A DNA stretch of 41,239 nt. Source: Methylobacter sp. Lineage in GTDB: Bacteria > Pseudomonadota > Gammaproteobacteria > Methylococcales > Methylomonadaceae. The stretch covers positions 1 through 41,239 of the forward strand of contig NZ_SCTW01000156.1 of the NCBI RefSeq assembly GCF_004322395.1, in the 5' to 3' direction. The notes beneath the pieces were generated by a model. The model made no database searches. It saw only the letters and a program-made list of their open reading frames with translations, and was not told where the DNA came from. Positions 27-29,338 of this stretch are shown one piece after another (within the stretch, counting starts at the first letter, position 1; each line of letters begins with the position of its first letter). Position numbers and translations under genes: made by a program.

Positions 27-57
27 TGAATATGCCCAGACACCGGAAAACCGGCGG
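27..57 (-). promoter_or_regulatory. Leaderless promoter, copy 1 of the CCGCCGG/TATTCA family
   Basis: On the minus strand CCGCCGG (51-57) is followed after 18 bp by TATTCA (27-32), and an ATG starts 5 nt further on. CCGGTTTTCCGG in the spacer is self-complementary. The stop codon of the upstream gene is at 62-64, so the element fills the only gap here. Reading it as a promoter is inference from spacing and recurrence. Confidence 0.6.
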
Positions 58-61
58 TCCT

Positions 62-253
62 TCAGCCCTTGAGAGACATGATGAAAGAAGCGTAGCAGAA
101 CATAGCGAAAGCTAGGACGACCAGACCGACGATCCTGAAGAACAGCCTCAGGTAGCCGTGTCTGCAGTTGACGAGCCTGTACTCAGAGTCGTCAGAGAAG
201 TGGTTCGGGGCGAAGAACCAGACGAGACCGCTGCCGTCACAGCACTTAGGCAT
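62..253 (-). CDS. Small membrane protein, unknown function
   Basis: 63 residues. The start is the ATG at 253, which overlaps the stop of the upstream gene as TGATG; an in-frame upstream ATG at 298 would force a long overlap. The N-terminus has adjacent Cys residues (MPKCCDGSG), a short polar loop with CRHG follows, and one hydrophobic span of about 20 residues lies near the C-terminus (LFFRIVGLVVLAFAMFCYA). It is the last gene of its chain, immediately before the copy-1 promoter. No family recognised. Confidence 0.75.
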   Translation of the reverse strand: MPKCCDGSGLVWFFAPNHFSDDSEYRLVNCRHGYLRLFFRIVGLVVLAFAMFCYASFIMSLKG

Positions 254-495
254 CAGCAGCTCAGGAGCCAGTGCCTTCTGGTTCTGTCTTGCTCGCACGT
301 GTGAGGGTTGGCCTCACCGGTCTTGAAAGCCTCGTCGTGCACCTTCCAGCGGTGCTGGATGCCTGTCGGGTTCTTCATGTTGGCCAGAGACTCCACGTCC
401 TCTTGCAGCTTGATGTCGGTGCAGACGGACATGAAGCAGAGGCCCTTCGCGTAGACTACGAAACGCTCGTCACTGATTCTGCTCAGGTTCAGCAT
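253..495 (-). CDS. Hypothetical protein, 80 aa
   Basis: The start is the ATG at 495, preceded by GAGGAGGAAAGG; the frame stays open upstream to 579 but that part is antisense-like. It overlaps the end of the gene at 489. The protein is polar, with an early segment GLCFMSVCTDIK and a His/Cys/Arg-rich tail (HTCEQDRTRRHWLLSC). No recognised domain. Confidence 0.7.
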   Translation of the reverse strand: MLNLSRISDERFVVYAKGLCFMSVCTDIKLQEDVESLANMKNPTGIQHRWKVHDEAFKTGEANPHTCEQDRTRRHWLLSC

Positions 496-650
496 CTTCC
501 TTTCCTCCTCGACTTGTGCTTGTCGGATCTGGGCTGCTTGGTCGCGTTCTCCTTGGCGTGCGGAGGGCAGATGTCGCACCTGAGCACGCGCTTGAGGTGC
601 TTCCTCTTGATCGTCTTCGGGTCCGTCTCGAACTTGTTCTGCCTAGGCAC
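489..650 (-). CDS. Small basic protein with a CxxC motif, 53 aa
   Basis: A GTG start at 650 sits behind GGAGGGAAG. The protein is very Lys/Arg-rich (KTIKRKHLKRVLRCDIC, then DKHKSRRKGRC). A CDICPPH motif could bind zinc, but only one CxxC pair is present. Nucleic-acid binding is plausible from charge only. It overlaps both neighbours by 7 to 8 bases. Confidence 0.65.
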   Translation of the reverse strand: MPRQNKFETDPKTIKRKHLKRVLRCDICPPHAKENATKQPRSDKHKSRRKGRC

Positions 651-870
651 CTTCCCTCCAGACGCGGTCGATCTCGCTGGCGATCTTCTTGTTGCAGTTG
701 AAGAGCAGCTTCTCGAAGATGTTCTTGTCGTCACCGGTGCAGACCGGAGTGAGCTTCGAGACTGGCAGGCCGAAAGCTCCAGTACCTGTGACGACGAGCT
801 TCTGCTTGATCGTGCTGCCGCAGGCCGGGCATCTCCTGACCTTCGACTGCGCTTCTTCTCTCGTGCTCAT
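643..870 (-). CDS. Zinc-ribbon-like small protein, 75 aa
   Basis: An ATG start at 870 overlaps the upstream stop (ATGA). An N-terminal CPACGS knuckle is followed by two further Cys residues (TPVCTGDD and FNCNKK), enough for a four-Cys zinc site. The C-terminal half is helical and charged. No specific family is assigned; partners are unknown. Confidence 0.75.
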   Translation of the reverse strand: MSTREEAQSKVRRCPACGSTIKQKLVVTGTGAFGLPVSKLTPVCTGDDKNIFEKLLFNCNKKIASEIDRVWREGA

Positions 871-1025
871 CTGCGTCGAGCCTCCCTGGCTTCCTTCTGG
901 TTGATGCCACCGTAGTGCCTGTCAGCGTAGCCCTGTTCACAGATCTCTTCGATCAACGAGTCGCGCGGCCTGAGGTAAGGCCCGTACCAGACGAGGTAGC
1001 AGTCGTCAAGCTTGTGGCGTTTCAC
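867..1025 (-). CDS. Hypothetical protein, 52 aa
   Basis: A GTG start at 1025 overlaps the upstream TGA (GTGA), and the stop at 867 overlaps the next ATG (ATGA), so both ends fit the operon rule exactly. The sequence starts MKRHKLDDCYLVWYGPYLRP and ends in an Arg/Glu-rich helix. It fills what would otherwise be a 150-base gap. No family recognised. Confidence 0.8.
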   Translation of the reverse strand: MKRHKLDDCYLVWYGPYLRPRDSLIEEICEQGYADRHYGGINQKEAREARRR

Positions 1026-1252
1026 TTGATCTCAAGCAGGTCCTTGATCGACCTGCGCAGTCTGCCCTCTGCGATGCTAGTCACCTCTGAGACCAGCCTC
1101 ATGAGCAGCTGCTTCTGCTTCTTCGGGATCTCGCGGTAGCGACGGGCAGGGACCTTGACGCTCCTGCTGAGAGACTTGAAGTACCTGTCTTCGTACTTCA
1201 GGTCGACGACTTTGCCGTCTTCGATGAACGGAGTGATGCGATCGATCTTCAT
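1022..1252 (-). CDS. Hypothetical basic protein, 76 aa
   Basis: An ATG at 1252 overlaps the upstream stop. It begins MKIDRITPFIEDGKVVDLKYEDRY and has a Lys/Arg-rich middle (VPARRYREIPKKQKQ) and a helical C-terminus. No cysteines, no membrane span, no recognised motif. Confidence 0.75.
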   Translation of the reverse strand: MKIDRITPFIEDGKVVDLKYEDRYFKSLSRSVKVPARRYREIPKKQKQLLMRLVSEVTSIAEGRLRRSIKDLLEIK

Positions 1253-1455
1253 TCGTCGTCTCCCTGCTTCGCCTTGATGTCCTGCTCGAGGCAGTGCATC
1301 TTCATCTCGATGTCGCTGCGGAGCTCCTTGAGCCTCTCCAGGGTCTCATCAGGAGAGACAGACGTGTCCGAGAACACGGCGTCGATCGCGTCTGTGGCTG
1401 CTTGCTCGACGTCTGAGACTTCGATCCCTTTCGACTTCGGTTTCTTCTTCGCCAT
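1249..1455 (-). CDS. Hypothetical charged helical protein, 68 aa
   Basis: The start is the ATG at 1455 behind GGAGGTAGC, a strong Shine-Dalgarno, 8 bases after the upstream TAG. The N-terminus is Lys-rich (MAKKKPKSKG); the rest is acidic and predicted helical, with one His/Cys pair (MHCLEQ). No family recognised. Confidence 0.75.
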   Translation of the reverse strand: MAKKKPKSKGIEVSDVEQAATDAIDAVFSDTSVSPDETLERLKELRSDIEMKMHCLEQDIKAKQGDDE

Positions 1456-1463
1456 GCTACCTC

Positions 1464-1679
1464 CTACTCGTTGATCCTGATGAAGTCGACTCCGACGATC
1501 TCGACGGCCGGCAGACCGAACTGCTTGCACAGCGCCTTACCGACCTTGACGAAGGCGGCCTTGACCTTGAGGCCGTCGAGAGTCTCCTCCGGCAGGTAGG
1601 CGACCGACGTGCCGATCTGCCGGCTGAAGCACTTGTCTGACGGCTTGGGCTTGACTCTGACTTCGAGGTTCTTGCTCAT
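1464..1679 (-). CDS. Hypothetical protein, 71 aa
   Basis: An ATG start at 1679 overlaps the upstream stop. A beta-rich N-terminus (MSKNLEVRVKPKPSDKCF) is followed by a helix and a C-terminal VEIVGVDFIRINE strand. It ends in TAG and is followed by a short gap holding the Shine-Dalgarno of the next gene. Function unknown. Confidence 0.75.
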   Translation of the reverse strand: MSKNLEVRVKPKPSDKCFSRQIGTSVAYLPEETLDGLKVKAAFVKVGKALCKQFGLPAVEIVGVDFIRINE

Positions 1680-2023
1680 TTGAGCAGCTCCTTCGCCTCT
1701 CGGTAGAGGTCGTTGGCCCAGGCGACTTCCTTGGGCGTCTTGGCCTTGTTGACGTGGGCCTCAGCAGCGAGCATGTCGACCGTCTCCTCCAGCTTGGTCT
1801 TGTTGAAGATCAAGTGGTTCTCCTGGTACAGCCGAGTCAGGAACTGGATCTTCGTGGTCAGCCCGGCACACATCATCGCCCTCGGCGCGTTGACGACTAC
1901 GTTGCAGTTGAGGCCGTCGCAGTTCATGACCTCTTCGCAAGTGTAGCCCCCGGACTGCTCGAGGAAGGTTCGGTACTTCTCCATCCAGCTCGGCATCGTC
2001 CACTTCTTCGTCGCGGTCTTCAC
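1676..2023 (-). CDS. Hypothetical protein, 115 aa, Cys-containing
   Basis: A GTG start at 2023 overlaps the upstream TGA. The N-terminal half has four cysteines (YTCEEVMNCDGLNC and MMCAG); the C-terminal half is helical (NKTKLEETVDMLAAEAHVNK). Whether the cysteines bind metal cannot be told from sequence. No family recognised. Confidence 0.75.
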   Translation of the reverse strand: MKTATKKWTMPSWMEKYRTFLEQSGGYTCEEVMNCDGLNCNVVVNAPRAMMCAGLTTKIQFLTRLYQENHLIFNKTKLEETVDMLAAEAHVNKAKTPKEVAWANDLYREAKELLK

Positions 2024-2235
2024 AGTGACCTCCTGGCCTTCACCTTGACCTCGCCGTAGCGGGCCTTAAAGGCCTTCTTGTTTTCGTCCAAGAACTTCTG
2101 CGCCTTCTCTTTCGAGTCCCACGGCGTCTCAGAGCCGAACAGGTGGCTGCCGTGGAAGTTCGGGTCGGTCGCGCTGCAAGAGATCGAGATGAAGCACTTG
2201 CTCCTCACAGACCAGATTCCCCAGATCGGTATCAT
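2020..2235 (-). CDS. Hypothetical protein, 71 aa
   Basis: An ATG at 2235 overlaps the upstream stop. It begins MIPIWGIWSVRSKCFISIS and ends in a basic helix (DENKKAFKARYGEVKVKARR). The segment WDSKEKAQKFLDENKK resembles the C-terminal helix of many small phage proteins of unknown role. Confidence 0.75.
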   Translation of the reverse strand: MIPIWGIWSVRSKCFISISCSATDPNFHGSHLFGSETPWDSKEKAQKFLDENKKAFKARYGEVKVKARRSL

Positions 2236-2522
2236 GGCTCCTCCACTCCCATTGCCTGCCCCATCGTGAAAGCGCCCTTACCCCAACCCTTAGGGTAGAG
2301 GGTCTTGAGCGTATAGATCCCCTTGGCGTCTCTCTCGGTCACTGCCACGATCTTCTTGCCCTTGAACTCGAGCTCCCAGTGCTGGCCGTTGATGTATGAC
2401 TGCTCCTTGATCAGCTCTGCACCACCTCGGCCGATCTTGGCCAGGATCCAGCCTATCTCTGGCGTCGTGATGACGAGGTTGTACCGCTCTTTCGCGACCC
2501 TCTTGATGTGCTCAGCGCTCAC
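2232..2522 (-). CDS. Hypothetical protein, 96 aa
   Basis: A GTG start at 2522 overlaps the upstream TGA. An N-terminal helix-turn region (EHIKRVAKERYNLVITTPEIGWIL) is followed by beta strands (WELEFKGKKIVAVTER). The N-terminus could be a small helical DNA-binding fold, but this is a guess from secondary-structure pattern. Confidence 0.75.
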   Translation of the reverse strand: MSAEHIKRVAKERYNLVITTPEIGWILAKIGRGGAELIKEQSYINGQHWELEFKGKKIVAVTERDAKGIYTLKTLYPKGWGKGAFTMGQAMGVEEP

Positions 2523-2788
2523 AGGATGATCCTCGAGATGGCCTGTGCGAGCCCTGCCGGTGTGGTGGCCTGCAGCTCCTTGAGCGCCTTCTCAGTGACC
2601 TCGTCGGCGTCGACGAACCTGAGGCTCTTGACCGCGGCGTCCAGAGTGGTCTCGTCGTCGAGCAGCGAGTACATGGCTGGAGAGACGACGAGCGTGTAGC
2701 TCTTCTTGGACAGGATCGCTCTCTTGGCGTCGGTCATGCCGACGTCGACTATCACGTCGAGCTGGCCGTAGTCGGTCTCGATCTTCAT
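2519..2788 (-). CDS. Hypothetical protein, 89 aa
   Basis: An ATG at 2788 overlaps the upstream stop. Alternating strand and helix segments, no cysteines, acidic overall (LLDDETTLDAAVKSL). No family recognised. The chain of overlaps on both sides supports expression as part of the operon. Confidence 0.75.
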   Translation of the reverse strand: MKIETDYGQLDVIVDVGMTDAKRAILSKKSYTLVVSPAMYSLLDDETTLDAAVKSLRFVDADEVTEKALKELQATTPAGLAQAISRIIL

Positions 2789-2958
2789 TTGAGCCCCTCG
2801 AGCAGCACGATCCTCTTACCGCCTTCCACGTCGAGCGCAATGGTGGTCAAGGGCGAGGTCAGCGGGTAGGGCTGCCTGGCGTCGACCCAGACTTGCACGT
2901 GGAGCTCGTCATCGTCGTTCGCGAGCTCGATCCACTTCTTGAGGTCCTTGACCTTCAT
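2785..2958 (-). CDS. Hypothetical protein, 57 aa
   Basis: An ATG at 2958 overlaps the upstream stop. The pattern KVKDLKKWIELANDDDELHV followed by short beta strands resembles a common small phage protein type in which a short helix ending 'DD.EV' leads into strands, but I cannot name a family. Confidence 0.75.
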   Translation of the reverse strand: MKVKDLKKWIELANDDDELHVQVWVDARQPYPLTSPLTTIALDVEGGKRIVLLEGLK

Positions 2959-3176
2959 GCTAGCCTCCTGAGCTGAGCCTCGATCTGCTCTCCCATGCAC
3001 TCCCAGTGCTGGGAGTCCTTCCAATTATGATCTGTGGCGACGCGTCCCAGGTAGCGGTTCTTGGCGAAATCGAAGAGGTCACTCCAGCCGCCTTTGCACA
3101 ACCTGCCGCCGCGAGGGCCAGAGTGGTCGAGGATGTGGTAACGCTGAGCTCTCCTGAGGATCGCCTTGACGTTCAT
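2955..3176 (-). CDS. Hypothetical protein, 73 aa
   Basis: An ATG at 3176 overlaps the stop of the 399-residue zinc protein. Rich in Arg, His and Trp, with Cys in GGRLCKGGW and HWECMGEQ. No recognised fold. It should be co-transcribed from the promoter at 4378-4407. Confidence 0.75.
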   Translation of the reverse strand: MNVKAILRRAQRYHILDHSGPRGGRLCKGGWSDLFDFAKNRYLGRVATDHNWKDSQHWECMGEQIEAQLRRLA

Positions 3177-4372
3177 GCTGCGACCTCCTTAGGCTTCTTG
3201 ATCCTCTTCTGCTTGGGCTGTCGGCAGCGAGCGAGGACAGTGCTCTTCTTGCCCTCCTTGTCCCTGTGGTCCTTGATCGTGGCGGCGACCAGGTGGGTGG
3301 AGCCGGGCTCGGGGTTCCAGGCAGCGGTGAATGTGACGAACTCCCTGCCGTCCTTGTCCCTCATGGAGATGACGGTCTTGGGGCCGTAGAGCTCGGAGAC
3401 GTATGGCCGAGCGGTCTTGACAGTGAGCTCCAGGACGACCTTGTCGCCGGGCTTGCCGTAGTGCTCTTCGAGGCGAGGCTCGGTCTCCTTGGGCTTGAGC
3501 ATGTCCATGTGCCTCATGTAGGCCTGGACTGTGCTGGCGAGGATGCCGAGCTGGCGGAAGGTGACGTAGGGGCTGCGGTTGGCGACGCCCAGATTCATCA
3601 GGTACTCGCTGCCGGTCGTGGGCAGCTCCTTGGCCCAGGCTGAAGCGGCTGCCGCCATCTCGAGAGCAGCTGGCGTGATCTCGACGAGCTGGACCATGCT
3701 GCGACCGCTGCGTAGCTCGACGGGCATCCTCATCGGGAACATGGACCAGTACGCGATGGTCTTGGTCGGTGTCCGGAAGGCTTTGGTGGAGATGAAGCCG
3801 TACTGGATGGTGTGGCTAGCAGCGTAGGTCAGGTACTCAGCGGTGCTGAAGTGCTCGAGCTGGCCTGCTCCTCCGTTGTACTGGCCGACCTTCTTCTCTA
3901 GGGCGAAGAGGCTCTGCATGTAGGAAGCGATGGCTCTAGGGTCGGCGTGCCCCAGGAAGTCCTTGATGCAGCCGGAGCCGACCATCTTGTACTCGCCAGA
4001 GTCGTGCCTGACGAGGTAGTGCTCGGTGCGATCCCTCTTGACCCTGCAGTGGTCGCAGCGCTGGGTCTGGGTGCGCTGCTCTACTGGGAGCGTGGTGCCG
4101 GGGACGAGAGCGAACGTGCACTCCTTGTCGAGGAAGTCGACTCTGGCAGCGAAGGTCCAGCCAGAGAACTTGGGAGCTTCGCCCTCGAGCATGACCAGAG
4201 CGTACTCGACGAGCCCGGCTCCGAGGTTCATGACGTGCTCAGAGTGGAGCTCGAAGCGAGGCAGCGGAGCTCCCACCTTGGTGGCCTTCTTGGAGAGCTG
4301 CTCGAGCTTGCTCTTGAGCTTCTCGAGGTTCTCTGAGGGGAGGAGGTAGGTGTTGCTGGGTGTGGCTTCCAT
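3173..4372 (-). CDS. Phage zinc-domain protein, 399 aa, leaderless start
   Basis: The start is the ATG at 4372, not the longer open frame to 4432: a TAATCA box lies 5 nt before it and no Shine-Dalgarno is present. A helical N-terminus (residues 12-30) precedes a Cys motif CDHC at 106-109 and GSGCIKDFLG with C135, a zinc-domain signature I associate with conserved phage and plasmid proteins of unknown role. The C-terminal part (about 315-385) is beta-rich and OB-fold-like, ending in a Lys/Arg tail, so nucleic-acid binding is plausible. It is the largest gene of the left third and first gene of its transcription unit. Confidence 0.9.
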   Translation of the reverse strand: MEATPSNTYLLPSENLEKLKSKLEQLSKKATKVGAPLPRFELHSEHVMNLGAGLVEYALVMLEGEAPKFSGWTFAARVDFLDKECTFALVPGTTLPVEQRTQTQRCDHCRVKRDRTEHYLVRHDSGEYKMVGSGCIKDFLGHADPRAIASYMQSLFALEKKVGQYNGGAGQLEHFSTAEYLTYAASHTIQYGFISTKAFRTPTKTIAYWSMFPMRMPVELRSGRSMVQLVEITPAALEMAAAASAWAKELPTTGSEYLMNLGVANRSPYVTFRQLGILASTVQAYMRHMDMLKPKETEPRLEEHYGKPGDKVVLELTVKTARPYVSELYGPKTVISMRDKDGREFVTFTAAWNPEPGSTHLVAATIKDHRDKEGKKSTVLARCRQPKQKRIKKPKEVAA

Positions 4373-4373
4373 G

Positions 4374-4568
4374 CTAATGATTAGCCGGAAGACCGGTAAA
4401 CCGGCGGCCCCAAGAGAGCTCCCAGGTCTCAAGGCCAGAGAGGAGGACCCTCACTAGGTCTCCGTCGTCCTCCTTGATGACGTCCTCGTAGCACTCGTGG
4501 GCCTCGACGATCGTCTCGAAGTCCTTGTGGAAGATGCCCTTGAGGTGGAACAGAGTGACTCTGTACAC
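4374..4568 (-). CDS. Hypothetical protein, 64 aa, 3' end overlaps a promoter
   Basis: A GTG start at 4568 follows the upstream stop by 15 bases. The Shine-Dalgarno is weak; TAATAT sits 4 nt before the GTG, so this may be another near-leaderless start. The protein is MYRVTLFHLKGIFHKDFE-like with an acidic middle. Its last ten or so residues are encoded by the promoter element for the next gene, so the tail sequence is constrained by DNA function. Confidence 0.6.
   Translation of the reverse strand: MYRVTLFHLKGIFHKDFETIVEAHECYEDVIKEDDGDLVRVLLSGLETWELSWGRRFTGLPANH
4378..4407 (-). promoter_or_regulatory. Leaderless promoter, copy 2 of the CCGCCGG/TATTCA family
   Basis: CCGCCGG (4401-4407), 17 bp spacer, TAATCA (4378-4383), then 5 nt and the ATG at 4372. 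The element lies inside the last codons of the 64-residue gene upstream. The spacer again contains inverted CCGG units. Confidence 0.65.
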
Positions 4569-4583
4569 CCTGATATTAGGAGA

Positions 4584-4814
4584 TCAGGAGCAGAACAGCA
4601 GGGTGCAGCTGCAGATGCCGGTCTTCTCGTTGATGGCCTTGCACTTGCAGGTGTTGCAGCCGTCCTTCAGCTCGTAGAGCTCTCCTGGCTTCCTCTTCGG
4701 CGGTATGTGCTCGTAGACGCCCTCGGGCCAGTCGAAGTTGGGGTCTCCCGGTTGCGGGATGAACGACTTGTTGGCGCAGCCGGTGAGGAAGGCGACGAGG
4801 AGCAGGAACCTCAC
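4584..4814 (-). CDS. Phage-encoded lipoprotein, Cys-rich C-terminus
   Basis: A GTG start at 4814 overlaps the upstream stop. A short signal peptide ends in a textbook lipobox, LTGC (MRFLLLVAFLTGCANK), so the mature protein should be lipid-anchored at Cys13. The mature part is Pro-rich and ends with a cluster of seven cysteines (GCNTCKCKA ... GICSCTLLFC) that could form disulphides outside the cytoplasm. Phage lipoproteins often act in superinfection exclusion or lysis (spanin-type); which applies here is unknown. The next gene downstream begins a possible new leader. Confidence 0.85.
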   Translation of the reverse strand: MRFLLLVAFLTGCANKSFIPQPGDPNFDWPEGVYEHIPPKRKPGELYELKDGCNTCKCKAINEKTGICSCTLLFCS

Positions 4815-5161
4815 TTCTTCTTGTACTCGGCCATGATCTTCTCGAGCTCTTTCGGGTCGATGAAGACCGTCCAGGTCATCTCGCCGCAGGCGAAGACGTT
4901 GGGAGCGATCTTCTCGACGAGCTCGACCTCCCTCTCCCAGTCGAATGTGCTGACGATGATCTTCTGGCCGAACTTCTCATGGAGTGCGTCCCAGGCCAAG
5001 TCCTCCTCAGGGCTGTCGCTCTCGGAGTTGACGGCGATGTGGCTCTGCGGGACCTTCATGAAGTTGGCCTTATCAGGGCCGGGGCTGACCTCGCCTTGGA
5101 CATCGAGCCACTCGTCCCTGGTCTGGAAGGTCCCTTTCTTCGCCGACTTGGTCCAGGTCAT
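4811..5161 (-). CDS. WTK-tag protein, 116 aa
   Basis: An ATG at 5161 overlaps the upstream stop. The N-terminus MTWTKSAKKG shares the tag M-x-W-T-K-[KS]-A with the genes starting at 5487 and 5992. The body has an acidic first half (SESDSPEEDLAWDALHEKFG) and beta strands near the end. Function unknown; the shared tag suggests a common destination or processing step. Confidence 0.8.
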   Translation of the reverse strand: MTWTKSAKKGTFQTRDEWLDVQGEVSPGPDKANFMKVPQSHIAVNSESDSPEEDLAWDALHEKFGQKIIVSTFDWEREVELVEKIAPNVFACGEMTWTVFIDPKELEKIMAEYKKK

Positions 5162-5487
5162 TTCTTCTTCCCCTTGCTCTTCGCCTCGCTGATCCTCTCG
5201 ACGGTCTTCCAGGCGTTCTTCAAGTAGTCGTAGATCTCATCCACGTCGGCGTGGAGGTCTTCGATGCCCTCAGCTTCGCCGTTGCGGATCTGATCGAACA
5301 GGGTGGCCGCCGTGTCGTGCGCCTCGAGGACCTGATCCTTGAGCTTCTGGAGCTCAGCGGGCGCGTCGTACTTCATGTCAGCGGTCTTCTGGGGAGGGCA
5401 CTTGCAGTTCGCCTTGGTGTTGTCGCAGCCGTCGCAGTAGGGCTCTCCGGGGACGCTCGGGCCGTTGGCTTTCTTTGTCCAGCTCAT
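5158..5487 (-). CDS. WTK-tag protein with CxxC-rich segment, 109 aa
   Basis: An ATG at 5487 (ATGA overlap). N-terminus MSWTKKANGP carries the shared tag. Residues about 18-31 hold four cysteines (CDGCDNTKANCKC), a likely small zinc site. The C-terminal two thirds are helical and acidic (LKDQVLEAHDTAATLFDQI), ending Lys-rich. No family recognised. Confidence 0.8.
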   Translation of the reverse strand: MSWTKKANGPSVPGEPYCDGCDNTKANCKCPPQKTADMKYDAPAELQKLKDQVLEAHDTAATLFDQIRNGEAEGIEDLHADVDEIYDYLKNAWKTVERISEAKSKGKKK

Positions 5488-5681
5488 GGTGTCTCCGTTC
5501 CGGCTGTCTTGGTCCAGGACGACTTCTTGTGCTGCTTCAAGAGGCTGAGGCCGTTGCAGATGTCGCACTTCGGGTGAGGGCCGCTGAGCTTGCCGTCGTG
5601 AGAGTCGCACTTGCCGTTCGGAGCGTACTTCCTGGCCATCTCCATGAGCTCCTTCTCACGGCCTTCTGTCCACTTGCTCAT
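5484..5681 (-). CDS. Cys-containing protein, 65 aa, WTK tag at its C-terminus
   Basis: The ATG at 5681 overlaps the upstream stop as TGATG. Begins MSKWTEGREKELME; the middle has GKCDSH and KCDICNG, a possible zinc site. It ends with SSWTKTAGTETP, a copy of the tag that starts its three neighbours, encoded directly before the next gene's own copy. This looks like a local duplication or fusion of the leader segment. Confidence 0.8.
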   Translation of the reverse strand: MSKWTEGREKELMEMARKYAPNGKCDSHDGKLSGPHPKCDICNGLSLLKQHKKSSWTKTAGTETP

Positions 5682-22975: not shown

Positions 22976-24189
22976 CAGCAGGGACCGTTCGTACGCTTCG
23001 GGTGCTGATCGCAGTTGCCATCACCGTCGTGGTCACGGGTGCAGCAGTGATCGTGAGGACGTGGGATCCTGCAGTCCTTGCGCCCAGGGCAATGGATGTG
23101 GACGGTCTGATCGAAGCACCCAGGCCAGTAGCACCCGCCTGCCAGCTGTGGTGCTGGAGCCTTCTTGATGTAGCCCCCGAAGCCGTGGCAGATGCTGCAA
23201 GAGAAGCTCGTGCCGTCCTTCATCTTGTGAGTGTCGAGGTACTCCCAGCCGTGCTGCTCAGGATGCTTGCCACACTGGATCTTCTCCATGCAGCGCCCGT
23301 CGTGGTTGGGCAGCCTGTCGCAGTCCCAGTAGTGAGCGCAGGTCTCACCTCTGCTCTCGCCCATCTCAGGACCTGTGTGGCAGTCAGGGCGAGGGCAGTC
23401 GTCTGCTCTCTTGACGTGGAGGTGCGGACCGGAGTGGCCGAGCGGTGCGTCGCAGGTGACCGTGTCGAGGTTCAGGTCCTCGCTCGGCGTCTCGAAGCTG
23501 GCTCCGCAGACCTTGGACCTGCACTCGCCGGTGTGGTAAGCTTGGAGACCGCACGTGTCAGGGCTGACGTCGCAGGGCCTCAGCGGCGCTTCACGGCCTC
23601 CATCAGGGCAGACGCTGCGGAAGCACTTGGCGTGCTCGATCGATGACACAGGGGGAGAAGCCGGCGGCCTCATCGCGCCTGGCCTGATCTGTTCGCGGGG
23701 CTGCTCAGCGCGCGCCTTGACGAGGTCCAAGAGGTGTTTGTCCTCGAGCAGCAGACCAGCGTGGGCCCAGATCTCTCGAGCGTTCTCGCGGCCCTGGACA
23801 GTGATGGTCTTGATCCAGAGGCAGCTGGCCTCGTGGAGCGAGATGGTAGCGAAGGCTGCGCCAGCTGGGAAGTCAGCTGCTGAAGAGCTGCGAGGCTCAG
23901 GCTGCCGAGTTTCTGCAGGCCTGCCAGCTGGGCTCTCAGCAGAGGTCTGCTGGCTGCTGAGATCTGCTGATCGGCGCTCAGCAGCGCTGCGCTGGAGCTT
24001 CAGCAGCTGCCTCCTGGAGAAGCCGACAGCTGCTGAGGCGATGAACAGCGGCGAGACCAGCAGGAACAGCAGCGTGCCGGAGAAACCTGCCAGGATCTTC
24101 AGGCCTGAATCGGCGTCGTCCCAGAAGGATTCGGGGAGGAAGTCGTGGATCCAGCTGAACGCCGCGTCCAGCAGCTCTCGCTTGGTCAC
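22975..24189 (-). CDS. Membrane-anchored Cys/His-rich protein, 404 aa
   Basis: The GTG at 24189 overlaps the upstream TGA. N-terminal helix, one transmembrane span at residues about 33-55, then a Ser/Ala/Pro-rich linker (66-115). The last 215 residues hold 23 Cys and many His, with three units C-x5-H-x-G-x-[CH] at 213-223, 246-256 and 290-300, plus C-x2-C at 331-334 and an acidic DHDGDGNCD near the end. Such C-x5-H-x-G-x-H units are frequent in actinobacterial and actinophage proteins. Possible surface or periplasm-side metal- or disulphide-stabilised domain; function unknown. No other protein in the window has this architecture. Confidence 0.85.
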   Translation of the reverse strand: MTKRELLDAAFSWIHDFLPESFWDDADSGLKILAGFSGTLLFLLVSPLFIASAAVGFSRRQLLKLQRSAAERRSADLSSQQTSAESPAGRPAETRQPEPRSSSAADFPAGAAFATISLHEASCLWIKTITVQGRENAREIWAHAGLLLEDKHLLDLVKARAEQPREQIRPGAMRPPASPPVSSIEHAKCFRSVCPDGGREAPLRPCDVSPDTCGLQAYHTGECRSKVCGASFETPSEDLNLDTVTCDAPLGHSGPHLHVKRADDCPRPDCHTGPEMGESRGETCAHYWDCDRLPNHDGRCMEKIQCGKHPEQHGWEYLDTHKMKDGTSFSCSICHGFGGYIKKAPAPQLAGGCYWPGCFDQTVHIHCPGRKDCRIPRPHDHCCTRDHDGDGNCDQHPKRTNGPC

Positions 24190-24671
24190 TTGGCCAGCTC
24201 CTTGGCGATGAACCTGCCGGCCCTGGCGTAGGGGTATTTAGGCAGCGGTGCTCTCTTCGGCAGCTTGACCAGGACCTTGGCCAACTTCAGGTCGAACTGC
24301 TGGAGGGCTGCGGTGATCCTGTGGTGTGGCTCTTTCTTGATGAGAACGGATGCAGGTTGTGCCGCCTTGCTCCGCTTCAGAGCGTACCTGCTGATTCCCT
24401 TGAGAGCGCTCGTGGGCCACAGCTTCTCAGGCAGCCTCAGGTAGCAGTCGTACCCAGGCATGATCGGAGAGGCCGTCTCCAGCAGGATCTTCTTGGTCGT
24501 GGTGACGTAGAGGCCGTCGTCGTGGACGTACTCGATGTCCTCGCCGAGAGCGTTGAAGACGATCGTGATGCGGCCGTTGGCTGTGCCCCAGACGGCGCCC
24601 GGCCAGTAGTACGTGCGGTCTGGTTCTGGTGGCTGGTGCTTGTGCCTCCTGAGCCCGGATATCCTTCTCAC
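24186..24671 (-). CDS. Hypothetical basic protein, 161 aa
   Basis: A GTG at 24671 overlaps the upstream TGA. The N-terminal half is beta-rich (ITIVFNALGEDIEYVHDDG), the C-terminal half very basic (ALKRSKAAQPASVLIKKEPH, LVKLPKRAPLPKYPYARAG). Basic tail suggests nucleic-acid contact. No family recognised. Confidence 0.75.
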   Translation of the reverse strand: MRRISGLRRHKHQPPEPDRTYYWPGAVWGTANGRITIVFNALGEDIEYVHDDGLYVTTTKKILLETASPIMPGYDCYLRLPEKLWPTSALKGISRYALKRSKAAQPASVLIKKEPHHRITAALQQFDLKLAKVLVKLPKRAPLPKYPYARAGRFIAKELAK

Positions 24672-24871
24672 TGGAGCCTCCTGAACATGTGCGGGTACGT
24701 CTCAGAGCGGTGGAGCTTGCGCTGCTTGACGAGCAGGTTCAGCTTGGGGTAGATCCAGTCGGGCTTGCGCTCCGTGCCGACCAGGATGATGGAGGCTTCC
24801 TTCGCAGTGAACCAGCCCCTGCGGGCTCTGCAGAAGCGGGCGACGCGGACTGAGGGTGAGAGGTCGTTCAC
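24668..24871 (-). CDS. Winged-helix-like small protein, 67 aa
   Basis: A GTG at 24871 overlaps the upstream TGA. RVARFCRARRGWFTAKEASI, then PKLNLLVKQRKLHRSE has the helix-turn-helix and wing cadence ('F....A......L..L...G.L.R') of small transcription or DNA-binding winged helices. This is a pattern call, not a family assignment. Confidence 0.7.
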   Translation of the reverse strand: MNDLSPSVRVARFCRARRGWFTAKEASIILVGTERKPDWIYPKLNLLVKQRKLHRSETYPHMFRRLQ

Positions 24872-25143
24872 TGGTAGTCCATGATGGCTTGGAGCTCTTC
24901 GCACCGGTTGTCCAGGCACCCGGTGTTGGGCGGTGGTAGAGGCCCTTTGCAGTAGATGATGTGGCCGTCAGGGCCTCGGAGCGCGAACAGGAGCGCCCAG
25001 ATCTCTGTCCACTTGAAGCGCTTGAGGAGCCAGCTGTCGTAAGCGCAGGCTGCTGTGAAGCCGGAGAGGAAGAGCCAGCCCGGGTGCCCACAGCGGTGGT
25101 AGGCGTAGAAGCAGGAGAGAGATGCGAGGATCCAGGTGATCAC
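24868..25143 (-). CDS. Two-span membrane protein, 91 aa
   Basis: The GTG at 25143 overlaps the upstream TGA. A hydrophobic N-terminus (MITWILASLSCFYAYHRCGH) and a second span (GWLFLSGFTAACAYDSWLL) precede a soluble tail with three Cys and Pro residues. Topology fits a holin-like or inner-membrane effector; nothing more specific can be said. Confidence 0.75.
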   Translation of the reverse strand: MITWILASLSCFYAYHRCGHPGWLFLSGFTAACAYDSWLLKRFKWTEIWALLFALRGPDGHIIYCKGPLPPPNTGCLDNRCEELQAIMDYQ

Positions 25144-25352
25144 AGTGTCCTCCAGAGCCGCTTGATCGCGGCCTGGACCTGCTCTTGAGCCAGCGTCTTA
25201 CCACAGTCGCAGGACTGGCGGTCGGCGAAGGCTGGGCAGTCGGTCTCGTGAGGTTCGCTCCTGATCCAGCGGTAGGCGTGCTGGAGGCCCTGGATGATCT
25301 CGTCGGTGGAGCGGCCTTCTTCCTTGAAGCGCGGCATCAGTCCTTTAGGCAT
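25140..25352 (-). CDS. Zinc-knuckle-like protein, 70 aa
   Basis: The start is placed at ATG 25352, behind GGGGAGG with 8-nt spacing; a second ATG at 25337 forms the TGATG overlap and is the alternative. TDCPAFADRQSCDCGKTLAQ clusters three Cys. C-terminus is a basic helix. No family recognised. Confidence 0.7.
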   Translation of the reverse strand: MPKGLMPRFKEEGRSTDEIIQGLQHAYRWIRSEPHETDCPAFADRQSCDCGKTLAQEQVQAAIKRLWRTL

Positions 25353-25696
25353 GAGAGCGCCTCCCCGGCGTGCTCGCCGGTGCGGGTGAGTATGGCGACG
25401 TCCGAGAGCTCCTTGAGCGATCTTGGTGAGCTGATGAGCGCCAGAGCGAAGGCCTCGTACTGCCAGCGGTGCTCGGGCGAGATGCGCCTCTCGTAGCCCC
25501 AGTAGTTCACCTCGACGATGACCCCTGGTAGGCGCCTGGCCTGGTACTGGGCGATGCAGTGAGCGCCCAAGTCCTTGTCCAGAGGAGTCGACAGCCGGAT
25601 GCCCAGCAGCACCCAGTCGTACTTCTTGTCGACGATCTTGAACGTCGGTACGGGTGCCTTGAGGCACGTCATCGTCGGCTGACCTCTCTTCTTCAT
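25337..25696 (-). CDS. Hypothetical protein, 119 aa
   Basis: The ATG at 25696 follows GAGGTGAGGTC. A beta-rich core (VLLGIRLSTPLDKDLGAHC and GVIVEVNYWGYERRI), then helices with ALISSPRSLKEL. No recognised family. Two Cys only. Confidence 0.8.
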   Translation of the reverse strand: MKKRGQPTMTCLKAPVPTFKIVDKKYDWVLLGIRLSTPLDKDLGAHCIAQYQARRLPGVIVEVNYWGYERRISPEHRWQYEAFALALISSPRSLKELSDVAILTRTGEHAGEALSCLKD

Positions 25697-25700
25697 GACC

Positions 25701-26021
25701 TCACCTCTTAACAGCTGAGAGTATGTACTTGACTCCCATGACCTGCGGTGCGACGGCCGTCTCCAGGAGCTGGGAGAGGGCGATGAAGCCGAACAGCATG
25801 GCGACCACGATCATCACCCAGCCTCCGACGGACCTCATCATCCTGGCCTCTTCGGCGTCCGAGCCGCCGTAGCGGTTCTTGACGAGGCCCCAGCCGAGCC
25901 CGCCGAGCGTGAGCCCGAACAGGATGCCTACGACGTCCGAGACGATCTCGGCCCGGACGGCCTGGGCGATGATGCCGGGTGTGGCCTTGATGACTGCGTC
26001 TGCGATCTGTTCTGGATTCAC
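25701..26021 (-). CDS. Holin-like two-span membrane protein, 106 aa
   Basis: A GTG at 26021 overlaps the upstream TGA behind GGAGG. An amphipathic N-terminus (MNPEQIADAVIKATPGIIAQ), a glycine-rich span (VVGILFGLTLGGLGWGLV), a charged loop (KNRYGGSDAEEARMMRS) and a second span (GGWVMIVVAMLFGFIALS). Size and topology fit class II holins, but no endolysin is nearby in this window, so holin function is a hypothesis. Confidence 0.75.
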   Translation of the reverse strand: MNPEQIADAVIKATPGIIAQAVRAEIVSDVVGILFGLTLGGLGWGLVKNRYGGSDAEEARMMRSVGGWVMIVVAMLFGFIALSQLLETAVAPQVMGVKYILSAVKR

Positions 26022-26203
26022 TTCGGTACCTCCTTGCAGATGGCCCAGATCCCGAAGCCGCCGTTCGGGTGCACGAAGCAGAGCCCCTGCTTGCCCATCT
26101 GCAGGTGGAAGTCGTTGTCCCTCTGCTGGTAGCCCACGATGGTGGCGCAGATGATGAGGAGGCTCAGGATGACCGTGCCCCCGACGATGTGCTCAGTCTT
26201 CAC
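26018..26203 (-). CDS. KxGLC small membrane protein C, 61 aa
   Basis: A GTG at 26203 overlaps the upstream TGA behind GGAGG. One span (VGGTVILSLLIICATIVGY), then QMGKQGLCFVHP and FGIWAICKEVPK. Third of three adjacent paralogues sharing a membrane helix, a GK/AK-x-G-[LM]-C motif and a closing W-x-x-C. Confidence 0.85.
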   Translation of the reverse strand: MKTEHIVGGTVILSLLIICATIVGYQQRDNDFHLQMGKQGLCFVHPNGGFGIWAICKEVPK

Positions 26204-26397
26204 TTGACGTCCTCCTTCGTGCAGGGCCTGAGCACCATGTCGGACGTCCAGCTGTTGCCGATGGGCGTGACTACTCGGGTGGTGCACATCCCTGCCTTGG
26301 CGACTCCGACCTCACGTAGGTCGCTACTGATGGTGCAGAGCGCGATGGTGGTGCAGATGGCGACGGTCAGGCAGACCAGCATCTTCTCGAAGCTCAT
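26200..26397 (-). CDS. KxGLC small membrane protein B, 65 aa
   Basis: The ATG at 26397 overlaps the upstream stop behind GGAGG; the longer open frame to 26424 is not used. Span FEKMLVCLTVAICTTIALCT, then VAKAGMCTTRVVT and RPCTKEDVK. Middle copy of the triplet. The conserved second Cys suggests a disulphide outside the membrane. Confidence 0.85.
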   Translation of the reverse strand: MSFEKMLVCLTVAICTTIALCTISSDLREVGVAKAGMCTTRVVTPIGNSWTSDMVLRPCTKEDVK

Positions 26398-26582
26398 TTC
26401 GCGACCTCCTTGCACTTCTTCCACAGCAGCTCGCTGGTCTGGGACATGCCGGAGCCGGTGATGACCCGCTCCTGGCAGAGTCCCATCTTCGCCATCTGCA
26501 CCCGCTCCCTGGACTCGAAGCAGTTGTAGATGGTCGCCCCGGCGATGCCGAGGACTGCGATGATCGTGAGCATGAGCTCCAT
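26394..26582 (-). CDS. KxGLC small membrane protein A, 62 aa
   Basis: The ATG at 26582 lies one base after the upstream TGA. Span MELMLTIIAVLGIAGATIY, then MAKMGLCQERVITGSGMSQT and LWKKCKEVAK. First of the three. All three keep the order helix, K-x-G-[LM]-C, 10 to 20 residues, C; this is a tandem expansion of one family. Confidence 0.85.
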   Translation of the reverse strand: MELMLTIIAVLGIAGATIYNCFESRERVQMAKMGLCQERVITGSGMSQTSELLWKKCKEVAK

Positions 26583-26583
26583 G

Positions 26584-26952
26584 TCAGTACCAGTCCCTTC
26601 CGTCGTATGACTCCAGGCGCTTGAGCGTCGGGAGGTAGAACGTAGTGCGCTCCAGCTGGACCTCATCGTCCTCCATGCTGGCGAAGCTCTTGTGGATGAT
26701 CTCGATCCAGATCGTGTGCTCGTCCGTGTTGCAGGCAGAGCCAGCGACCGTGTTGTTCTCTTTTGTCTTCACCTTGTAGACGCAGCCGGCCTTGAGGTAC
26801 GCCCAAGCCTGGCCGACGTCGCGCTGAGAGTGCGGCGTGTCTCTGTTGGACCACCGCCCGTGAGGGACGATGGCTCTCTCGCAGATGTCGATCAGCTGCT
26901 CCCGAGAGTAGTCGATCTTGACCTTCGGTGTCTTCTCCTTCATCTTAGGCAT
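26584..26952 (-). CDS. Hypothetical protein, 122 aa
   Basis: The ATG at 26952 lies within the last codons of the AAA+ gene behind GAGGGG; ATG 26943 is an alternative. Begins MPKMKEKTPKVKIDYSREQ, with a helical N-terminus and beta-rich middle (VYKVKTKENNTVAGSACN). Translationally coupled to the ATPase, so it may act with it. Confidence 0.8.
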   Translation of the reverse strand: MPKMKEKTPKVKIDYSREQLIDICERAIVPHGRWSNRDTPHSQRDVGQAWAYLKAGCVYKVKTKENNTVAGSACNTDEHTIWIEIIHKSFASMEDDEVQLERTTFYLPTLKRLESYDGRDWY

Positions 26953-28684
26953 CGGCGTTGGTCCCCTCAGTGGACTTGAACTTCAGGACGTACTCCAGGA
27001 CGTCGAAGGTGATCGGGGCCTTGCGGGCCTTGCTGATCAGGTTGCTGAGCTTGACGAGGTTCTTGATGTCCCGGCCGGTGGTGTTCGGGTGAGCCTTGGC
27101 GAACTTGGTGATCTCCTTCATGTCCACCTTCATGTTGGAGTTCTTGATCATGATGCCCCAGATCTGCAGCTGCTGCTCGAGCGTGGGGACTTTGTACTCG
27201 ATGCGGGCGGTGCAGCGAGAGGCGATGGCGTCGTCGATGAGGACGGACCGGTTGGTGGTCAGGAAGAGGACGCCTCTGTAGTACTCGAGGGTTCGGAGGA
27301 AGACTCCGACGATGGCGTTCTGCTTCAGGTCAGAGCCTCTGGCGTGGATGAAGACGTCCGCCTCGTCGATGAGCAGGATAGCTCCCCAGCGAGTAGATCT
27401 CTGCAGGACCTGCTTGAGGTGCTTCTCGAGCTGGACAGCCTCGGTGCCGAGCTGGCTGGACTGGACGTTGTAGAGCGGCCTCTTCATGACCTCAGCGTAG
27501 ACCTCTGCGGTGAGGGTCTTGCCGGTGCCGGGGACTCCGGCGCAGAGGACGATGGAGCCTCCAGACTTGCCGGTGATGATGTCCTTGAAGTTGCTGTTGG
27601 CGTGCTCGATGAGGATCTCGACGAGCTCCTTGTTCTCCTCGGGCAGGACGAGCTGGCTGTGCTTAGTCTCGTCGTACTGGTACTCCTGGACGTTGGCGAC
27701 GTGGACGAGGCAGTGGTCGTGGGTGCTCATGTTGAACACCAGCAGGTAGGGGTGGACCGGAGTGGGGATCGTGCCCTCGTCGATCTCCTCGTCGTCGATC
27801 TCCTCGTTGTCCTTGTTCCAGACCTCGTCGTCGGCCAGGATCTGCTTCTTGGTCATCTTCCAGAACGTGATGTCGGTGGTCGTCTCGTCCGGGTCGACGG
27901 ACTGCTTCTTCGAGCGGCGCTGGTTCTCGTCGGCGTCCTGGGTGTCGACCCTGTCGTCGATCACGAGGCGGGTCTTGATGCCGTCGGTGATGAGGCTGTC
28001 GAGGCGACGGCGGTGGGAGAAGGAAGCGGCGATCGAGTAGTCAGTGTTGTGGAGAGGGCGGGCGAAGCCGTCGCCGACGAGCTGCGTGCCGGTCTTGTCG
28101 ATCAGCTCGTTGTACTTGGCGAGCTGAGCAGCGTACTTCTTGTTCAGCTCCTTCGTGGCCACCGTGAGGTCGAACTGCTCGAGGATCTCCTTAGCGTTCT
28201 TCCCTCCCTTGATGTTCTTGCGGTAGACCTGGATGCTCTCGTTGACCTTCTCACCGTCGAGGAAGGACTGGACGTCGAGCCTGACATGGGCGGGTTCTCT
28301 GTTCTGGCCTCGGCCCTGCTTCTTGTAGTACATCACCTTGGTGACGATGTACGGGAGGGAGATGTCGGAACCCTCGTCGACCTTCTTGTACAGCATCAGG
28401 CCGGGAGCTCTCTTGATGTACTCCTTGAGGATTCCCTCAGCTTGCTCGACGTTCTGGGGGATGGCCTTGAGCGGATCCTTGCGAGCTTCGTCCCAGGTCT
28501 TGATAGCGGACAGAGCTCTCTTCGAGACGCCCGGAGTCTTTGAGATGCGGACGATGTCCTTCTCCTCGAGCATCTCGAGGTCGACCCTGATCTTGTCGGC
28601 CTTGTAGATGTTGCGCTTGGCCTCGGCGATGGCCTTGATGTCGGAGAGCTTGTCGTAGACTTCGGGTTCGAGTGTGATGTTCAC
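26945..28684 (-). CDS. AAA+ ATPase, 579 aa
   Basis: The GTG at 28684 follows AAGGAGGTAGCACCAG. Residues about 1-310 are family-specific and mostly helical with charged loops (acidic run at 291-303). The AAA+ core has Walker A GVPGTGKT (383-390), Walker B ILLIDEAD (436-442), sensor 1 TTN (476-478), a conserved R490/R494 pair as Arg-finger candidates, and a sensor 2 GRD (537-539). It uses ATP to remodel a protein or nucleic-acid complex; the target is unknown. It has its own leadered promoter (28718-28748). Confidence 0.95.
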   Translation of the reverse strand: MNITLEPEVYDKLSDIKAIAEAKRNIYKADKIRVDLEMLEEKDIVRISKTPGVSKRALSAIKTWDEARKDPLKAIPQNVEQAEGILKEYIKRAPGLMLYKKVDEGSDISLPYIVTKVMYYKKQGRGQNREPAHVRLDVQSFLDGEKVNESIQVYRKNIKGGKNAKEILEQFDLTVATKELNKKYAAQLAKYNELIDKTGTQLVGDGFARPLHNTDYSIAASFSHRRRLDSLITDGIKTRLVIDDRVDTQDADENQRRSKKQSVDPDETTTDITFWKMTKKQILADDEVWNKDNEEIDDEEIDEGTIPTPVHPYLLVFNMSTHDHCLVHVANVQEYQYDETKHSQLVLPEENKELVEILIEHANSNFKDIITGKSGGSIVLCAGVPGTGKTLTAEVYAEVMKRPLYNVQSSQLGTEAVQLEKHLKQVLQRSTRWGAILLIDEADVFIHARGSDLKQNAIVGVFLRTLEYYRGVLFLTTNRSVLIDDAIASRCTARIEYKVPTLEQQLQIWGIMIKNSNMKVDMKEITKFAKAHPNTTGRDIKNLVKLSNLISKARKAPITFDVLEYVLKFKSTEGTNADA

Positions 28685-28717
28685 CTGGTGCTACCTCCTT
28701 GTTTGAGAGCTACCTGA

Positions 28718-28748
28718 TGAATATGACCGGCGCAGCGGAAACCGGCGG
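28718..28748 (-). promoter_or_regulatory. Leadered promoter, copy 4 of the CCGCCGG/TATTCA family
   Basis: CCGCCGG (28742-28748), 18 bp, TATTCA (28718-28723). Unlike the leaderless copies, about 30 nt and a strong Shine-Dalgarno separate it from the GTG at 28684. It starts directly at the stop of the upstream zinc-ribbon gene. Confidence 0.65.
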
Positions 28749-28931
28749 TCACTGAGCCGGAGCAGCGACGCTGTTGTGGTAGGTCCGCTGAGGAGGGACG
28801 ATGAACTGGACTCCTACGAAGTGGCACTCAGAGCACTCGCCCCAGGTCGACTCGAGTGGCATGCTCCTGAGCTTCCTCTTGCAGCACTTCTCGCACATGT
28901 ACACAGGCTTGTTCCTGACTCTCACATCCAT
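28749..28931 (-). CDS. Small zinc-ribbon protein, 60 aa
   Basis: The ATG at 28931 follows GGGAGGACGAGAC. CEKCCKRKL and CSECHFVGVQ form a two-knuckle ribbon with short spacing; a Pro-rich tail ends HNSVAAPAQ. Single-gene unit between a hairpin and the AAA+ promoter. Nucleic-acid or protein binding is possible. Confidence 0.85.
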   Translation of the reverse strand: MDVRVRNKPVYMCEKCCKRKLRSMPLESTWGECSECHFVGVQFIVPPQRTYHNSVAAPAQ

Positions 28932-28952
28932 GTCTCGTCCTCCCTTGCCTGT

Positions 28953-28958
28953 TGATTA
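28953..28958 (-). promoter_or_regulatory. Probable -10 box for the 60-aa zinc-ribbon gene
   Basis: TAATCA at 28953-28958, preceded by GGGCA as in copy 1. The expected CCGCCGG is poorly kept (CCGAGGC at 17 bp), and it overlaps the arm of the upstream hairpin. Leadered, with Shine-Dalgarno. Weaker than the other copies. Confidence 0.4.
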
Positions 28959-28971
28959 TGCCCTCACGCTA

Positions 28972-29003
28972 AGAAGCCTCGGCTGTGAGAGCCCGAGGCT
29001 TCT
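28972..29003 (-). terminator. Perfect 11-bp hairpin after the 86-aa gene
   Basis: AGAAGCCTCGG (28972-28982) pairs without mismatch with CCGAGGCTTCT (28993-29003), loop 10 nt. It lies 8 bases downstream of the stop at 29011 on the minus strand. The T tract after it is short (CTTCTTAG), so it may end transcription weakly or protect an mRNA 3' end. Confidence 0.7.
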
Positions 29004-29010
29004 GGGTTGA

Positions 29011-29271
29011 TCAGGAGAATTTCTCGGCGAGAGCTACCTGGTTCCATTGAGCCTTCTTCCGGAGGAGGTCGTTGGCCTTGGTCATCCGGGTGATGAGGCC
29101 TTCGGAGGAGTCGTCGATGATGTTGACCAGGGCGTCGATGTCCTTGGTGTTGAGGAAGAAGCGGTAGTTGTCTTTGCGGAGGAAGACGTAGTTGGTCTTG
29201 TCCTGGATCCTCTTCTTGCCTTCGAGTCTGATGGTGAGAGCCTGGAGGAGCTTCTGGATCTTCTGGTTCAT
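29011..29271 (-). CDS. Hypothetical protein, 86 aa, monocistronic
   Basis: The ATG at 29271 follows AAGGAGATACCG. It has its own promoter and is followed by a strong hairpin, so it is a single-gene unit. Helical and basic (KIQKLLQALTIRLEGKKRIQ), with a middle VFLRKDNYRFFLNTKDID. No recognised family. Strong independent expression suggests an abundant protein. Confidence 0.85.
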   Translation of the reverse strand: MNQKIQKLLQALTIRLEGKKRIQDKTNYVFLRKDNYRFFLNTKDIDALVNIIDDSSEGLITRMTKANDLLRKKAQWNQVALAEKFS

Positions 29272-29307
29272 CGGTATCTCCTTGAGGTAGTGAAGTGTGC
29301 TACCTTA

Positions 29308-29338
29308 AGAATAGCCGGTTCTGCCGGAAAACCGGCGG
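29308..29338 (-). promoter_or_regulatory. Leadered promoter, copy 5 of the CCGCCGG/TATTCA family
   Basis: CCGCCGG (29332-29338), 18 bp, TATTCT (29308-29313). The spacer contains GCCGGTTTTCCGGC, a perfect small inverted repeat. GGTAG/CTACC in the leader (29286-29304) could form a hairpin before the Shine-Dalgarno. Drives the 86-residue gene. Confidence 0.65.

Follow-up and report, generated by a model that had tools for sequence, protein, structure and literature searches.

A two-box element upstream of minus-strand genes

The window analyzed here is the whole of a 41,239-base contig (C95) from a 157-contig, 4.59-Mb Methylobacter sp. assembly, and the subject of this work is a two-box element, CCGCCGG followed at 17 or 18 bp by a TAWTCW hexamer, which lies upstream of several of its genes. 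The 109 usable genes called in the window are all on the minus strand and mostly small, with frequent 4-nucleotide (nt) overlaps. The guanine-plus-cytosine (GC) content of the contig is 60.4%, whereas seven further contigs of this assembly (C46, C59, C74, C79, C94, C135, and C138) have 43 to 53% in the stretches sampled. The assembly gave no 16S match. On these grounds, we infer that the contig is a fragment of a phage that ended up in the bin of a foreign genome; the assembly is probably not the host. An exact terminal overlap of the contig ends was not found at the lengths tried, so a closed genome is not supported, and the phage genome probably extends beyond this contig.

The element is represented by four strong copies and two weaker sites:

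27 to 57, minus strand: strong copy 1, CCGCCGGTTTTCCGG..., 18 bp, TATTCA; ATG (window position 21) 5 nt on, leaderless geometry.
4378 to 4407, minus strand: strong copy 2, CCGCCGGTTTACCGG..., 17 bp, TAATCA; ATG 4372 5 nt on; overlaps the 3′ end of open reading frame (ORF) 4374 to 4568.
28718 to 28748, minus strand: strong copy 3, CCGCCGGTTTCCGC..., 18 bp, TATTCA; predicted leader of ~27 nt with AAGGAGGT, then GTG 28684 (AAA+ ATPase gene).
29308 to 29338, minus strand: strong copy 4, CCGCCGGTTTTCCGG..., 18 bp, TATTCT; predicted leader of ~30 nt with AAGGAG, then ATG 29271.
13436 to 13466, minus strand: weak site, CCGGC-TATTCT, with CCGCTGA at 17 bp (two mismatches); ATG 13430 5 nt on, leaderless geometry.
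28953 to 28975, minus strand: weak site, GGGCA-TAATCA, with CCGAGGC at 17 bp (three mismatches) in the 3′ arm of a hairpin; Shine-Dalgarno sequence, then ATG 28931.

The initial annotation, made from the sequence alone, had reported the four strong copies, and all of them were recovered at these positions, every one on the minus strand. CCGCCGG is identical in all copies and is separated by 18, 17, 18, and 18 bp from TATTCA, TAATCA, TATTCA, and TATTCT in copies 1 to 4. The block CCGCCGGTTT is also identical in all four; it occurs exactly four times on the minus strand, never on the plus strand, and nowhere else in the window. CCGGTTT is found on the minus strand at the four copies and on the plus strand once, at 37588, inside a plus-strand tRNA. 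All strong copies are oriented toward the downstream gene, and each one in the window is located near a start.

The downstream half of the element is shared more widely. There are eight TAWTCW hexamers on the minus strand of the window and none on the plus strand; four have an exact CCGCCGG 17 to 18 bp away, and six are at the sites listed above, the other two being located at 26 (just behind the copy 1 box) and at 7113 (coding). When aligned by the hexamer, the flanks read CCGGC-TATTCT in copy 4 and at 13441, CCGGC-TAATCA in copy 2, GGGCA-TATTCA in copy 1, GGGCA-TAATCA at 28958, and GGTCA-TATTCA in copy 3. The pattern GGC[A]TANTC occurs five times on the minus strand, each time at a different one of the six sites, and is absent from the plus strand. 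The weaker copies proposed earlier at 13436–13466 and 28953–28958 thus hold up with respect to the −10-like half and its flank, but their CCGCCGG halves carry two and three mismatches, respectively, and are merely CCG-like.

Statistical controls

A two-box weight matrix trained on the four copies was compared with 20 dinucleotide shuffles. The four copies scored 32.2 to 37.7 bits, the next independent site scored 13.3, and the best shuffle scored 15.9. Since the matrix was trained on the copies, their own scores are high by construction, and the empty range below them is the informative part. With the codons of the called genes shuffled synonymously, the dyad was absent from all 200 shuffles. 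In a free search in which every 7-mer was paired with a TA-type box 17 or 18 bp away, the CCGCCGG dyad ranked first with its four copies; when genes were synonymously reshuffled and noncoding bases were shuffled, four copies of some dyad were seen in 1 of 200 controls and three copies in 21 of 200. The possibility that the motif is equally common inside coding regions, raised at the outset as grounds for discarding it, was not borne out: the motif is nearly absent there, and copy 2 alone overlaps an ORF end.

The separate parts are less telling. CCGCCGG by itself is unremarkable in the window (nine matches versus 7.4 expected). There are 101 different minus-strand 10-mers with at least four copies, compared to a control mean of 54, so four copies of one 10-mer by itself prove little. 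Chance repetition, selected after the fact, would draw on these recurrent 10-mers and on the single control that reached a four-copy dyad, but we find it scarcely credible given the joint spacing, the near-absence from coding sequence, and the position at starts.

Position relative to gaps and start codons

The element was initially said to mark the few breaks in the minus-strand gene chain. When a gap was defined as at least 14 nt between called genes, 17 gaps were found. Strong copies lie in two of them (28685–28748 and 29272–29340) and weak sites lie in another two (28932–29010 and 13431–13458), but the other 13 have no such site, and the original wording was therefore too strong. Copy 1 occupies an additional gap (22–61) next to the contig edge, and copy 2 is not in a gap, being placed over the 3′ end of ORF 4374–4568. 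The site-free gaps include the minus-strand tRNA gap 5993–6095 and the gap 37450–37916, which holds the plus-strand tRNA; several are partly fillable by longer alternative ORFs.

At three of the six sites (copy 1, copy 2, and 13441), an ATG is located exactly 5 nt past the hexamer, with no Shine-Dalgarno sequence; for copy 1, this was established by eye, since the gene behind it runs off the contig and is absent from the gene calls. At the other sites, the distance from hexamer to start is 21, 33, or 36 nt, and Shine-Dalgarno–type leaders are present: AAGGAGGT in copy 3, AAGGAG in copy 4, and GGGAGG at the 28958 site. The start at ATG 4372 is backed by the PHROG 2319 profile, whose match (27–403 on a longer ORF, reaching profile position 4) begins at residue 7 when counted from this ATG. 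Such a mix of leaderless and leadered starts fits a promoter rather than a translation signal.

A separate observation concerns GTG 4568 (4568–4583, minus strand), which has no Shine-Dalgarno sequence; TAATAT lies 4 nt upstream, and the CCGCCGG block is absent. Judging from its sequence, it is possibly another leaderless start with a different promoter.

The sites as a probable promoter class

From the sequence, spacing, orientation, and position of the sites, we infer promoter activity, start points, and recognition by a polymerase. The fixed two-box spacing, the orientation toward a gene, the near-absence from coding sequence, and the leaderless geometry at three sites support this interpretation. 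The element is real, sharply defined, and promoter-like, and is probably a phage promoter class, unusual in sequence and ordinary in kind. We consider it likely, on the arrangement of bases described above, that the sites form one class of promoters; this estimate partly overlaps with two of the alternatives below, which concern the identity of the reader and an overlaid operator.

The −10-like box GGC[A]TAWTCW is common to the six sites (with GGTCA before the box in copy 3), and four of them add a conserved upstream block, CCGCCGGTTTnCCG. In the proposed mechanism, this block would span about −37 to −23, in the place of the sigma70 −35 box or the T4 MotA box. Transcription would start 6 to 7 nt past the last base of the hexamer: at the A of the ATG in the leaderless genes (21, 4372, and 13430), and 15 to 30 nt upstream of the Shine-Dalgarno–led starts at the other three sites. 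Within a long minus-strand operon, the sites would serve to start transcription anew. The RNA polymerase reading them would have its −35 contact replaced, the substitute being a sigma-like protein of the phage or a phage activator that acts on the host polymerase. A more specific version, which we put forward tentatively and as somewhat short of an even chance, is that in a phage of an unsampled lineage, a sigma-like or MotA-like appropriation factor of a family not yet recognized reads the GC-rich CCGCCGGTTT block (about −37 to −23) and fires both leaderless and Shine-Dalgarno–led genes, in places within the terminator-like hairpin of the preceding gene.

Several observations weigh against the promoter interpretation. 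The sigma70 −10 consensus is TATAAT, and TATTCA and TAATCA lack its final T; among the six sites, only copy 4 and 13436 (TATTCT) have it. Thirteen of the 17 called gaps lack such a site. The full copies number four and come from a single contig, and the search for related phages carrying the motif was negative. Among the 109 called proteins of the window, all from the minus strand, none was recognized as a sigma factor, RNA polymerase, or MotA-like protein (Pfam E ≤ 0.01 and PHROGs E ≤ 0.001). Last, the upstream block by itself also occurs outside the contig: a search with ACCGCCGGTTTTCCGG, allowing up to two mismatches, gave 20 matches in the assembly, 3 of them in the window, compared to 3 for a reversed-pattern control.

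Comparison with known promoter systems

The 17- to 18-bp spacer between two boxes lies within the 16- to 18-bp range used for sigma70/SigA promoters. In contrast to these, the element has no TTGACA, and the hexamers of copies 1 to 4 match TATAAT at three, two, three, and four of six positions. The initial claim that the upstream box is unlike that of sigma70 was thus plainly correct, with CCGCCGG standing in place of a TTGACA-like −35 at all four strong copies. Sigma70-type sites overall are below chance in the scanned parts of the window, with one found versus 2.6 expected at 21240–41239 and none versus 2.0 at 1–20000.

According to excerpts of PMC2988021, T4 middle promoters have a MotA box near −30 that replaces the −35 box, with a −10 downstream, and are activated by sigma appropriation through AsiA and MotA; the box, WWWTGCTTtA, is 12 ± 1 bp from the −10, and an excellent match to the sigma70 −10 is needed. 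The block described here would likewise be centered near −30 if the predicted start points are correct. It differs in being GC-rich (CCGCCGGTTT), with no TGCTT in the four blocks, in lying ~9 to 11 bp from the hexamer (the figure varies with the end assigned to the block), and in the poorer −10 match; also, no MotA or AsiA relative was recognized among the called window proteins. Because its sequence, −10 quality, and factors are unlike those of T4, the element is not classed as a T4 middle promoter.

The jumbo phages AR9 and PBS1 also have phage-specific promoter classes across their genomes, and the AAA+ gene of the window resembles a PBS1/AR9 gene. However, the AR9 elements, as given in excerpts of PMC5312081, are AT-rich (AAATATATATTAT-(6N)-G for early and AACA-(6N)-TA/G for late promoters), and AR9/PBS1 use phage multisubunit polymerases, while no polymerase subunit was recognized in the window. 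A reading of the sites as archaeal transcription factor B recognition element (BRE)/TATA promoters was rejected, the AT-rich box being 5 nt from the ATG. A literature search combining CCGCCGG, promoter, and phage returned no paper on such a promoter, as judged by titles and abstract openings.

Candidate readers and alternative explanations

It was suggested at the outset that a phage-modified or phage-specific polymerase reads the element. The promoter part of this suggestion is well supported, but the proposed reader was not borne out, as no such protein was recognized among the 109 called minus-strand proteins. The reader could be a host sigma factor or else a phage protein whose gene is not on this contig. 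A few of the 109 proteins weakly match regulator-like families: a plant bHLH ACT-like domain (E 0.0011) and zinc ribbons (E 0.003 and 0.0096). In Streptomyces phage Coruscant, a gene annotated as “putative RNA polymerase sigma factor” is located immediately before the terminase gene. The window gene in the same place (40116–40904) was considered and set aside: it is 11 to 21% identical to the six genes compared and has no confident family, and homology is not claimed.

We consider it unlikely that the sites are read by an alternative sigma factor of the host, independently of any phage factor. The 17- to 18-bp spacing is normal for sigma70-family factors, and a host reader would agree with the failure to recognize a phage factor among the called proteins. 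However, CCGCCGG-N16-19-TAWTCW occurs seven times in the assembly, which is probably not the host, with two matches for a reversed-pattern control. Four of the seven are in this contig; the other three sit in stretches of 46 to 50% GC, and the arrangement of start codons seen here was not seen behind them.

We give slightly less weight to an operator, in which a CCGG-rich dyad (GCCGGTTTTCCGGC in copy 4) would bind a dimeric repressor or silencer over simple −10-only promoters; judged from the sequence, such a site could coexist with the promoter class. An operator overlap had been raised initially because CCGGTTTTCCGG often occurs in the spacer. This sequence is exact in two of the four copies, but it overlaps the CCGCCGG box, and the statement needs correcting accordingly. 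The two sites that have the −10 half without the block fit the idea of the block as an add-on. Against an operator, copy 3 has an interrupted dyad (CCGGTTTCCGCT) although CCGCCGGTTT does not vary, which indicates that it is the asymmetric half that is conserved; the spacing to the hexamer is fixed at 17 to 18 bp; no copy is found away from a start; and no repressor was recognized among the 109 called proteins.

A terminator would explain each site as a GC-rich hairpin after the stop of the upstream gene, with TATTCTT as the U-rich tail. Hairpins are indeed found at several sites:

28972 to 29003, minus strand: terminator-like hairpin, 11-bp stem just past the stop of gene 29011–29271; no long U-tract; weak-site hexamer behind it.
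29314 to 29336, minus strand: hairpin, 9-bp stem overlapping copy 4 and ending at the hexamer, then TATTCTT; flagged by the scan.
13441 to 13455, minus strand: hairpin, 5-bp stem overlapping the weak site, then ATTCTCTTTC; flagged by the scan.

The scan for terminator-like sequences, which like the sigma70 scan covered 21240–41239 and 1–20000, flagged these last two (29336–29314 and 13455–13441) of the six sites. Five of the six sites closely follow a stop codon, and the gap 28932–29010 has a stable hairpin, the fold z-score of the 28958 stretch being −3.3. In contrast, z-scores are just −1.6, −1.6, −1.9, and −2.8 at copies 1 to 4 (−1.1 at 13441), most tails at the strong copies have no U-run, and those such as UAAUCAUU are poor U-tracts. 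Terminator-like sites are overall near chance level (16 versus 13.7 expected at 21240–41239; 14 versus 13.3 at 1–20000). A terminator also needs neither an invariant 10-mer at a fixed spacing from TAWTC nor an ATG 5 nt on. The invariant sequence and fixed spacing favor DNA recognition over termination. We therefore consider termination improbable as the function of the sites, and we read the hairpins as places where, in a compact genome, terminator-like sequence and promoter sequence partly overlap.

Very improbable is a translation-start sequence of the kind known from cluster K mycobacteriophages, the start-associated sequence (SAS). These are likewise short repeats upstream of phage gene starts, and the sites here are just upstream of start codons; however, SAS occupy the position of the ribosome-binding site, typically 3 to 7 bp from the start, according to excerpts of PMC3203893, whereas the hexamer-to-start distance varies here and CCGCCGG ends at least 28 nt before the starts.

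Promoters specific to phages are a route to new mechanisms by which bacterial RNA polymerase is reprogrammed. If a GC-rich block does serve both leaderless and leadered genes, it would provide bait for its factor and a small portable promoter set; if the sites are promoters of a host alternative sigma factor, the element would instead point to the host.

Search for relatives carrying the motif

No near DNA match to window positions 25000–41239 was found in 50,697 phage records, and single-protein scans of viral contigs with the AAA+ ATPase and the terminase found no close relative. The large terminase gene (38147–40000, minus strand) encodes a protein whose identity is ~27% to the terminases of ~130-kb Streptomyces and Rhodococcus phages and ~38% to those of the best metagenomic contigs (L028 and L031). 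CCGCCGG-N16-19-TAWTCW is absent from the four nearest terminase loci (L028 to L031), and by eye, with rough gene calls, their called gaps have no shared block; L028 has one match to the much looser CCG[CT]CGG-N15-20-TANNNT.

The motif itself gave two matches in IMG/VR viral contigs, which were rejected, since they are in loci of 36% and 48% GC and have no start codon 5 nt behind. A looser pattern was found in 82 stretches, with one match in each of the 80 listed. These were taken as chance: of the stretches examined by script for a start just behind TATTC or a Shine-Dalgarno–led start within 45 nt, 10 have a loosely GGC-like flank and none passed the start tests. None of 199 relatives of the assembly has the motif, the one match among 200 genomes being the assembly itself. 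The terminase has a match in 3 of 398 genomes of the phylum; one is the window itself, and the others are 25 to 26% identical. Two further terminase relatives (L108 and L116, 28 to 29%) are in archaeal-labeled assemblies, of the uncultured archaeon LFW-28 and a Micrarchaeota metagenome-assembled genome, and may be misbinned phage.

Genes behind the sites and other features of the window

The genes following the sites, apart from that behind copy 1, are as follows:

3173 to 4372, minus strand: gene behind copy 2, 399 amino acids, PHROG 2319 family of uncharacterized function.
26945 to 28684, minus strand: gene behind copy 3, 579-amino acid AAA+ ATPase with a C-terminal part like the PBS1/AR9 “ATP-dependent protease.”
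29011 to 29271, minus strand: gene behind copy 4, 86 amino acids, no confident relative; own promoter-like and terminator-like sequences.
28749 to 28931, minus strand: gene behind weak site 28953, 60 amino acids, two CxxC pairs, zinc-ribbon–like by eye.
13173 to 13430, minus strand: gene behind weak site 13436, 85 amino acids, no Shine-Dalgarno sequence.

Structure prediction for the 399-amino acid protein was unusable [mean predicted local distance difference test (pLDDT) score of 35]. The 86-amino acid protein, folded alone (mean pLDDT of 75), had no fold match at E ≤ 0.001. The AAA+ ATPase is 33% identical over ~80% of its length to the PBS1/AR9 jumbo-phage protein named ATP-dependent protease; the terminase of the same phage is closest to other groups.

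A plus-strand tRNA-Arg(CCT) at 37562–37636 is followed by a 92-amino acid plus-strand ORF (37642–37920), whose product may resemble DUF4326 proteins. The two apparently form a plus-strand unit within the otherwise minus-strand contig. A 93-nt repeat with 80% identity is found at 7736–7828 and 18993–19085, 11 kb apart, within two called small genes that are probably paralogues, and a 111-nt repeat with 74% identity (34311–34421 and 34476–34586) is located within a 544-amino acid ORF (33248–34882). Among the products of the small genes in the 62–15043 region are a polynucleotide-kinase–type phosphatase (PF25109, E 1.3e-23) and two proteins that match the Lar restriction alleviation family (PF14354, best E 1.2e-7).

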